From Desulfovibrio aminophilus (GTDB taxonomy: Bacteria > Desulfobacterota > Desulfovibrionia > Desulfovibrionales > Desulfovibrionaceae), in assembly GCF_023660105.1 (NCBI RefSeq), contig NZ_JAMHGA010000001.1, positions 1 through 64,000 on the forward strand: a DNA stretch of 64,000 bases. Reading direction: 5' to 3'. Positions 37,620-40,298 of this stretch are shown here, piece after piece (the stretch's first letter is position 1; each line of letters begins with the position of its first letter). The notes under the pieces were generated by a model. It did no database searches. It was not told the DNA's origin and was given only the letters and a program-made list of their open reading frames with translations. The translations under genes were made by a program, and so were the position numbers.

Positions 37620-38969
37620 TCAGGCGGTGATGCGGTCCAGGGTCGCGGCCATCTGGCGGCCCATGGGGGTCTGCAGGGATATCTCGCGCTCCAGGTTGGT
37701 GATGCCCTTGAGCACGGTGGAATGCTTGCGGCCGAGGCGCTCGCCGATGGCCGAGAGGGACAGGCTGGTGTGCTTGCGGGCCAGGTAGAAGGCCGCGTTG
37801 CGGGCCGCGACCACGGCCTGCTTGCGGCTCCTGGAGGCCAGCTGCTCCGGGGTCAGGGCGAATCTCGCGCAGATGAATTCCAGGATGCGCTCGAAATCCG
37901 GCCGGGCGTCGGCGACCGCGTAGTTGCGCAGCACGTCCCAGGCCAGGTCCAGGGTCACGGCCTGGTTCAGGAGCCGGGCCTTGAGCACGAGGTTGCGCAG
38001 GCAGCTCTCCAGCTGGCGGATGTCCGAGGTCACGCGTTCGGCCAGCAGCTCGGACACGGACTCGGGCACCGCGATCTGCAGGGTCTTGGCCTTGCGCTCC
38101 ACGATGCGCCGCCGCGTCTCGAAATCCGGCTTCTCGATGTTCGCCAGGAACCCGGAGCAGAACTGGGAGACCAGGCTCGAATCGAGCCCGGCCAGTTCGA
38201 GCGGCAAAAAGGAGCTCGTGCAGACCACCTTGCAGCCCCGGGCCTGGAGGGCCTTGAGCGTGCAGAGCAGCTCGTCCTGCATCTTCTCCTTGCCCTGGAA
38301 GAAGTGCACGTCCTCCAGCAGGAGCACGTCCGCGGCCTCGCGGAACTCGGCCTTGAAGCGCGTCACCTCGCGGGCCTTGATGGCCAGGACCAGGCGGGTG
38401 GCGAACTCCTCGGCGGTCAGGCAGGCGATGTGCGGGGCTCGGCGGTTGCTCTGCGCCGAAAGGGCCTGGCCGATGCCGTGCAGGAGGTGGGTCTTGCCCA
38501 GGCCCGGCCCGGCGCCGAGGAAAAGGTTGTCCGAGGTCAGCGTGCCCCGGCACAGGCTGGAGGCGGCGGCCCAGGCCAGCTCGTTGCTGGGGCCGACCAC
38601 GAAGTCGTCCAGGGTGAAGCGCCACTTGTGCTGGGGCAGGGGCCGGGGCGTGTGCACGATGGGCAGGCCCAGTTGGCTCGGGGCCGGGGCCGGAAGCTCC
38701 GCCTCCGGCTTGGCGGCGGGCTGGGCCGGAGCCCGGCGCACCTCCACCCGGATTTCGGGACGGGAACCCAGGATCTGGGCCGCGCAGTCCGACACCGCGT
38801 CGAGCAGGCGGTCACGCACCCAGGCGGCCACGAAATCGTTGGGGGCCAAGAGCCGCAGCACGCCGTCGGACACTTCCCCGTCCAGGGGCTTGATCCAGAC
38901 GGTAAACATTCTGGAACTCAGGTTTTTTTCCAGAGCGGCGTAGATATGATTCCAGGCGTCAGCGACCAT
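37620..38969 (-). CDS. dnaA: DnaA-family replication initiator, atypical
   Basis: A 449-residue DnaA with full domain order: domain I (1-80), Pro/Ala linker (81-105), AAA+ domain III (110-340) and DNA-binding domain IV (355-449). Walker A is LGAGPGLGKTH (151-161), Walker B LLLED (216-220), sensor 2 Arg318. In box VII, aligned to E. coli RLKSRF, the sequence reads SLVSQF (265-270), so the arginines equal to Arg281 and Arg285 are Ser265 and Gln269. In domain IV the signature GGRDHTTV is LGRKHSTV (412-419), with Lys for the base-contacting Asp433. No dnaN or gyrB follows. Desulfovibrio genomes can carry two dnaA genes; this may be the second. Start at 38969; an earlier ATG at 39005 is possible. 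Confidence 0.88.
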   Translation of the reverse strand: MVADAWNHIYAALEKNLSSRMFTVWIKPLDGEVSDGVLRLLAPNDFVAAWVRDRLLDAVSDCAAQILGSRPEIRVEVRRAPAQPAAKPEAELPAPAPSQLGLPIVHTPRPLPQHKWRFTLDDFVVGPSNELAWAAASSLCRGTLTSDNLFLGAGPGLGKTHLLHGIGQALSAQSNRRAPHIACLTAEEFATRLVLAIKAREVTRFKAEFREAADVLLLEDVHFFQGKEKMQDELLCTLKALQARGCKVVCTSSFLPLELAGLDSSLVSQFCSGFLANIEKPDFETRRRIVERKAKTLQIAVPESVSELLAERVTSDIRQLESCLRNLVLKARLLNQAVTLDLAWDVLRNYAVADARPDFERILEFICARFALTPEQLASRSRKQAVVAARNAAFYLARKHTSLSLSAIGERLGRKHSTVLKGITNLEREISLQTPMGRQMAATLDRITA

Positions 38970-39166
38970 GTTCCGCGTTGTATGTGATCGGTCGGAAGCC
39001 AACAACGCGGATAAACGGCCGGGGCCGTCGCTTTCCCTTTCTCTTCTCTACAGCATAACTCATTGTTTTAAAACAAATTTATCCTATCCCTCGGTTCCAG
39101 CCGTCACACACTCTCCCCAATAAGCAACGGTCCGGTCACAAGGGCTTTGCCGCCTGCAACAGTTTT

Positions 39167-39198
39167 TTTTCAACAATCAGTTGACAACGTTTTCAACA
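39167..39198. repeat. Two TTTTCAACA motifs, candidate DnaA boxes
   Basis: Identical 9-mers at 39167-39175 and 39190-39198 lie 23 bp apart (two helical turns), on the same face, within the AT-rich region upstream of dnaA. They match seven of nine bases of the classical DnaA box. The local DnaA has an altered recognition helix, so a modified box would be coherent. Confidence 0.4.
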
Positions 39199-39563: not shown

Positions 39564-40298
39564 CTACGCCCCGTTATCCCGGAGGGGATACCGCCCGCAC
39601 GTGAAGCGGGCCGATTCCGGGCAGTAGCCCAGGCGTTCGCAGCGCGCACCGGCAGTGGCGAACAGGGCGGGCAGGCGGTCCCGGCAAATGGCCAGCATGG
39701 CCTGGGCCATGTCGCGGATCTCCCACTGGGCGCGGGAGCAGCAGCGCAGGCTGAAGAAATGCAGCAGGGCCCGGCAGTTCATGGTCACCACGATCTTGGT
39801 CTCGGCCGCCTGGGGCAGGACGAAGCGGGCGTCCTCGTTGGCCTTCGCGCCCCGGCCGTTGGCCGCCAGGATTCCCTTGAGCTCGCGGTAGGCGCCTGAA
39901 ATCTCGGCCATGAGCGCCTCGAAGCGCTCCCGGGCCTCGGGGATGCGGGCGATGGCCGGGGGCAGGATGTAGTCCATGTCCGACTCGTCCACGTAGCGCT
40001 GGCTCTGCTGGGAGTAGGAGGCGATCCGGTGGCGCACCAACTGGTGCGAACAGGCCCGCGAGATGCCCTCCACCGCGAAGCTGAAGCTGACGTGCTCCAC
40101 CGGGCTGTCGTGCCCGGACTCCAGCACGGACTGGACGAAGTCGGCCTGCTTCTCCCGCTCGATCTCGCCGGAGAGCAGCCGGGGCCACATGTCGGCCACG
40201 AACCCGGCGTGGTAGCACTGGCGGAACGCGGCGTAGATCAGGGACAACGGCTCGGGGGTCATGGCCAACAGCTCGACCCGGAGCTTCTTCTGCGGCAT
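39564..40298 (-). CDS. thyX: Flavin-dependent thymidylate synthase
   Basis: A 244-residue ThyX that makes dTMP from dUMP using methylene-tetrahydrofolate and FAD. The ThyX motif RHRxxSxxxxSxRY is exact (RHRIASYSQQSQRY), preceded by HVSFSFAVEGISRACSHQLV; the C-terminal NCRALLHFFSLRCC is the substrate-binding segment. Length is normal. No thyA is in the window. Terminates at a strong hairpin; 72 bp after the P-loop-like gene. Confidence 0.96.
   Translation of the reverse strand: MPQKKLRVELLAMTPEPLSLIYAAFRQCYHAGFVADMWPRLLSGEIEREKQADFVQSVLESGHDSPVEHVSFSFAVEGISRACSHQLVRHRIASYSQQSQRYVDESDMDYILPPAIARIPEARERFEALMAEISGAYRELKGILAANGRGAKANEDARFVLPQAAETKIVVTMNCRALLHFFSLRCCSRAQWEIRDMAQAMLAICRDRLPALFATAGARCERLGYCPESARFTCGRYPLRDNGA

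Follow-up and report, generated by a model that had tools for sequence, protein, structure and literature searches.

DnaA is a nearly universal protein, usually present as a single copy, and models of origin opening place the arginine finger, the bound ATP, the box reader and the grip on single-stranded DNA all in one protein. The recognition of the DnaA box in Escherichia coli includes a base contact by Asp433, seen in the domain IV–DNA structure 1J1V. Desulfovibrio is a main model of sulfate reducers. Work in E. coli established that the arginine finger R285 is required, as are, for oligomers or DUE binding, the domain III residues found here to be sorted between two DnaA copies (PMC5742627). 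In the open-access literature searched, we found no useful account of dnaA in Desulfovibrio or of Asp433, and no description of a division of such residues between two DnaAs.

The dnaA gene in the window (the whole 64-kb stretch of Desulfovibrio aminophilus DNA that was analysed; Table 1), here named dnaA2, encodes a protein whose matches to DnaA_N, Bac_DnaA and Bac_DnaA_C all exceed the Pfam cut-offs and follow DnaA domain order, although its score of 319.7 bits against the equivalog model TIGR00362 lies under the curated cut-off of 343.9. Its AlphaFold model is a confident four-domain DnaA (mean pLDDT 84.5), with a domain III that superposes on that of B. subtilis DnaA (8bv3; TMt 0.92, rmsd 1.5 Å). 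The sequence-only reading had placed Ser265, Gln269 and a Lys (residue 415) at the positions of E. coli R281, R285 and D433 and had named a shifted box VII alignment among the cases that would undo it. An alignment that included E. coli DnaA together with 60 relatives confirmed the three assignments and paired GVEDRLKSRFGWGL with GLDSSLVSQFCSGF, and a single helix of the model (residues 264–270) spans S265 and Q269, so that the shifted alignment was rejected. The same reading held that Walker A, Walker B and sensor 2 remain, which is correct for Walker A and sensor 2 but not entirely for Walker B, where D235 is replaced by Glu. In E. coli numbering, used hereafter, the window protein retains K178, V211, R227, K243, R334, R399, H434 and T436, has Lys for R245 and Ser for T435, and carries Ser at the sensor-1 position D269. 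By E. coli rules these residues support the earlier proposal that the protein would bind ATP while lacking contacts of its own between ATP and an arginine finger.

Table 1 Features of the dnaA2 locus. Positions are those of the window unless another locus is named.
Feature	Position	Strand	Basis
dnaA2 coding sequence, 449 aa plus stop	37620..38969	-	Intact ORF; Pfam DnaA_N, Bac_DnaA, Bac_DnaA_C
Domain I, residues 1-78; W6 and F46 retained, Met at E21 position	38736..38969	-	
AAA+ ATPase domain III, residues 116-349, with K159 of Walker A and R318 of sensor 2 retained	37923..38624	-	
E219, Walker B position of E. coli D235; Glu replaces Asp in every DnaA2	38313..38315	-	
S265, position of E. coli R281, box VII	38175..38177	-	Alignment
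Q269, position of E. coli R285, arginine finger	38163..38165	-	Alignment
Domain IV, helix-turn-helix DNA-binding domain, residues 356-449	37623..37904	-	
K415, position of base-contacting E. coli D433, in LGRKHSTV; one residue shorter than FGGRDHTTV	37725..37727	-	
DnaA-box-like site TTTTCAACA, distal of pair	39190..39198	+	
DnaA-box-like site TTTTCAACA, proximal of pair, 23 bp from distal	39167..39175	+	
Third conserved site, box-like, putative function; TGTAGAGAA (reverse complement TTCTCTACA), about 98 bp upstream of start	39044..39052	-	
thyX (flavin-dependent thymidylate synthase), same-strand upstream neighbour	39564..40298	-	Named from sequence
DnaA-like ORF without ATPase domain (other loci)	L072:7612-8316; L250:4674-5378; L247:4558-5262; L196:179-1033	- (L072)	

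The suggestion that this is a second DnaA was borne out by another full-length dnaA in the D. aminophilus genome (C11:58449-59627; product DnaA1), which adjoins dnaN. The two proteins share ~26% identity, and in a tree including the DnaAs of E. coli, B. subtilis, T. maritima and A. aeolicus each forms a clade with 100/100 support, with canonical DnaAs between them and a deeper branching order that is unsure owing to long branches; DnaA1 and DnaA2 are therefore not recent duplicates. Domain III identity was higher for DnaA2 than for DnaA1 in 203 of 210 genome pairs, indicating slower evolution of DnaA2. A DnaA2 query matched 119 of the 120 genomes of the class Desulfovibrionia, and a clear DnaA2 was identified in 37 of 39 relatives, the remaining two comprising one contig-end fragment and one genome with none. 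Two DnaA2 peptide motifs were found in 215 stretches among 84,980 species genomes, with relatives encoded in 203 of these stretches, and the 80 retained loci bear Desulfovibrionales or unresolved proteobacterial titles except for one small contig labelled Planctomycetaceae, which is probably misbinned. The motif pair is essentially restricted to Desulfovibrionales and, judged by its sequences, DnaA2 represents an ancient and strongly conserved second type of DnaA in this order rather than a local oddity.

Residue conservation differs between the two copies. Walker A K178 and sensor 2 R334 are present in all 37 DnaA2 proteins, consistent with ATP binding, and Walker B reads Glu-Asp in place of Asp235-Asp236 in 37/37 of these and in 81/81 aligned proteins from the motif search. 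R281 is found in 1/37 (mostly Gln instead), R285 in 24/37 and D433 in 0/37; the window protein has neither R281 nor R285, and of the box-reading surface R399/D433/H434/T435 it keeps R399 and H434. None of the 81 motif-search proteins has Asp433, 78 having Arg or Lys at that position, and 58 of them keep R285, the other 23 carrying Cys, Tyr or Gln there. As aligned, the DnaA2 clade as a whole is marked by D235E and by the loss of R281 and D433, while R285 was lost repeatedly and only in some lineages, including the genus of the window. DnaA2 retains R227 (34/37), K243 (36/37), Val, Ile or Leu at 211 (36/37) and F46 (36/37), and L290 in 2/37, whereas DnaA1 retains R285 (23/23), L290 (22/23), D235 (23/23), E21 (16/23) and D433 (19/23) and has largely lost R227 (present in 2/23), K243 (0/23), V211 (3/23) and R281 (2/23). 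R245 is also unconserved in the B. subtilis and T. maritima DnaAs, so that not every DnaA1 loss is telling. On these alignments DnaA1 and DnaA2 lack different, complementary sets of initiator residues, and given the residue requirements in E. coli neither protein alone should, by E. coli rules, open oriC. Either those rules differ in this lineage or DnaA1 and DnaA2 would act jointly.

The gene lies away from the place expected of an origin-encoded initiator. GC skew shows no sign change at dnaA2 in any of 14 finished genomes (in G017 one side has almost no skew), by which dnaA2 was rejected as the skew-defined origin; its off-origin position in all relatives tested agrees with its being a second DnaA. 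The place at the skew minimum or beside dnaN is occupied by dnaA1, where skew turns from negative to positive in G072, G135, G080 and G098 and is indistinct in G067, G017 and G068. In G100 the cumulative skew minimum lies no more than ~10 kb from dnaA1 and the AT-rich gap between dnaA1 and dnaN, and 1.4 Mb from dnaA2. An exception is G030, with a minimum 300 kb from dnaA1 and also far from dnaA2; at this minimum (G030:C1 ~330–340 kb, L171) an AT-rich stretch has TTTTCAACA/TTTTCCACA sites close by and is a possible origin adjoining no dnaA. Local skew on the D. aminophilus draft contigs was noisy and gave no origin position. Six finished records (G100, G082, G087, G054, G068 and G097) start at dnaA2, apparently because they were rotated by DnaA similarity.

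The region upstream of dnaA2 contains conserved box-like sites flanked by AT-rich sequence. The pattern TTWTNMACA has two matches in the window, both in the TTTTCAACA pair before dnaA2, and relatives carry TTTTCCACA, TTATCCACA or TTTTCAACA 235–279 bp before the dnaA2 start, often as a same-strand pair 21–23 bp apart (exact site in 52 and pair in 36 of 74 named loci); box-like sites stand ~240 bp before dnaA2 in most species. A box-pair search of 59 whole genomes returned 18 matches, compared with 1 when the pattern was reversed, and 14 of these 18 lie directly before dnaA2. The word TGTAGAG occurs in 27–28 of 76 dnaA2 upstream regions compared with 0.1 expected, and roughly one species in three has TGTAGAGAA. 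These sites may serve autoregulation of dnaA2 or its regulation by DnaA1. The expectation that DnaA2 reads a different box holds in that D433 is absent clade-wide, but the conserved upstream sites TTTTCCACA, TTATCCACA and TTTTCAACA are near-canonical. No Rfam match to a conserved leader RNA was found across the window, and k-mer counts revealed no prominent DnaA-trio-like repeat before dnaA2. Nothing comparable to these sites was found before dnaA1, and no canonical box is conserved before dnaA1 or in the dnaA1–dnaN gap; several such gaps (e.g. L053, L061 and L066) contain the repeated TGTTC/GAACA words GAACATCGGGATGTTCC, TGTTCGTAAC and GTTAGGAACAAAG, which are possible candidate sites for DnaA1. 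The genome of the window has a second TTTTCAACA pair, 22 bp apart, before an hsp20-like gene (G000:C23:72779-72809, L146). A wider DnaA2 regulon inferred from box pairs was rejected, as only the dnaA2 position recurs and both the hsp20 site and three intragenic matches in relatives look like background. Linkage of thyX to dnaA2 extends across much of the family. Just downstream of dnaA2 in genus g8 and some named relatives, an ORF of ~235 aa combines domain I of DnaA with a degenerate domain IV (profile E 1.5e-7) but lacks the ATPase domain.

Outside the order, the only full-length DnaA found in the other Desulfobacterota sampled is ~33–39% identical to DnaA2 and ~23–27% to DnaA1. Recognition helices in seven of these genomes were read through pattern hits only, and at the dnaA position five of the seven have F-[RN]-R-x-H with the one-residue shortening and Thr, Thr, Asn, Asn and His at 433; the Lys/Arg-433 pattern had no match at their dnaA, and the looser pattern yielded Thr, Asn or His. 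An additional copy, in which the helix is the canonical GKDHST or GRDHST, was observed in G241, G206, G169 and G286. From these comparisons, the altered recognition helix is old and DnaA2 is related to the type of DnaA that other Desulfobacterota carry as their only one.

We tentatively favour, at somewhat less than even confidence, a reading in which DnaA2 acts with the origin-encoded DnaA1, possibly in mixed filaments, and regulates its own gene. DnaA2 would bind ATP and would also bind the TTTTCMACA-type box pair before dnaA2, giving autoregulation; in a mixed filament DnaA1, which keeps its arginine finger but lacks V211 for single-strand binding and R227 and K243 for oligomers, would supply the finger, and DnaA2 the bound ATP and the single-strand grip. 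Such a partnership is supported by the presence of two dnaA genes, the class-wide conservation of DnaA2, the complementary losses, the slower evolution of DnaA2 and the conserved box pair, the division of residues between the two proteins being one that we read from sequence. In three genomes of one family (f5), where DnaA2 has Q285 as in named Desulfonatronum, the DnaA2 query found no DnaA1 match at E ≤ 1e-5; DnaA1 of this family may be too divergent for that query and hence have been missed, but if it is truly absent, DnaA2 would suffice without an arginine finger, which would overturn the partnership reading. It is unlikely that Desulfovibrionales have a split initiator, in which the origin opens only through mixed filaments of two distant DnaAs with complementary losses; DnaA1 would then contribute the arginine finger and canonical box reading, and DnaA2 R227, K243 and the single-strand grip.

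Other readings differ in the part they give to DnaA2. It is possible, though on the unlikely side, that DnaA2 serves as a dedicated regulator. As a transcription factor that binds ATP, or as a titrator of boxes, it would control its own gene, perhaps also thyX, and restrain DnaA1 without opening the origin; its off-origin position in 14 genomes, its dedicated box pair and third conserved site, its linkage to thyX and the dispensability of the arginine finger in several lineages all speak for this reading. Retention of V211, R227, K243 and the domain I residues W6 and F46 would nevertheless be needless in a pure transcription factor, and with one further box pair in the genome of the window and the others of relatives intragenic, no wider regulon is seen. 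The regulatory role proposed from the sequence alone is not established: DnaA2 is more conserved than DnaA1, keeps V211, R227 and K243 and has a relative with a similar helix as the only full-length DnaA found elsewhere in Desulfobacterota, making a direct part in initiation just as possible. The closer relationship of the DnaAs of other Desulfobacterota to DnaA2, five of seven with a shortened helix and no Asp433, also suits a reading in which DnaA2 is the main initiator inherited from a Desulfobacterota ancestor, DnaA1 a divergent accessory and the arginine finger inessential in this lineage, as do the slower evolution of DnaA2, its retained ssDUE residues and the TTTTCMACA boxes near the skew minimum of G030, away from dnaA1. 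We consider this doubtful, since skew changes sign at dnaA1 and not at dnaA2, R285 is invariant in DnaA1 (23/23), and the window's genus and others have lost from DnaA2 a residue that E. coli requires (PMC5742627). The conserved box pair, its near-constant distance from the gene and its AT-rich flanks resemble a minimal oriC, and could mark a relict or secondary origin, kept since an earlier stage at which DnaA2 alone initiated replication; the unchanged skew at dnaA2 in 14 genomes and the k-mer counts, with no prominent DnaA-trio-like repeat, make this very improbable. A decaying, functionless duplicate or an annotation or assembly artefact might account for the loss of otherwise near-universal residues, but the ORF is intact and conserved through the class, exceeds DnaA1 in conservation and is preceded by conserved sites; this reading has a negligible probability and is already refuted by the conservation of DnaA2.

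The interest of DnaA2 is that a well-conserved, off-origin DnaA has altered oligomer and box-reading residues and losses that mirror those of DnaA1. An order-wide division of residues between two distant DnaAs would allow a direct test of which residues are essential, and bears on cell-cycle and genetic work in Desulfovibrio.

Close to DnaA2 in type are the DnaAs of the other Desulfobacterota genomes G232, G261, G191, G171 and G227, where a single full-length DnaA was found; their helices (FRRTHST, FNRNHST, FNRNHAT or FNRHHAT) are short and without Asp433 as in DnaA2, with Thr, Asn or His at 433 where DnaA2 has Lys or Arg. Thermotoga maritima DnaA (2z4r), the only DnaA known from its genome, has the helix FNRSHPVV with the same one-residue shortening and no Asp433, like FNRRHSTV and LGRKHSTV, but unlike the DnaA2 of the window retains the arginine finger and R281. 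As Asp433 is missing from the only DnaA found in other Desulfobacterota and the T. maritima helix is likewise shortened, absence of Asp433 alone is not the mark of a regulatory protein. Hda is a DnaA-type AAA+ domain acting on DnaA, without domains I and IV, both of which DnaA2 has, and DnaA2 scores 62.4 bits against the NCBIfam Hda model, below the cut-off of 194.8. With canonical DnaA (E. coli, B. subtilis; TIGR00362) DnaA2 shares the four domains, Walker A, sensor 2, R399/H434/T436, V211, R227 and K243, and its best match among solved structures is B. subtilis DnaA (8btg); it differs from canonical DnaA in the changed R281, R285 and D433, the D235E substitution, the shortened recognition loop and the location of its gene off the skew-defined origin.
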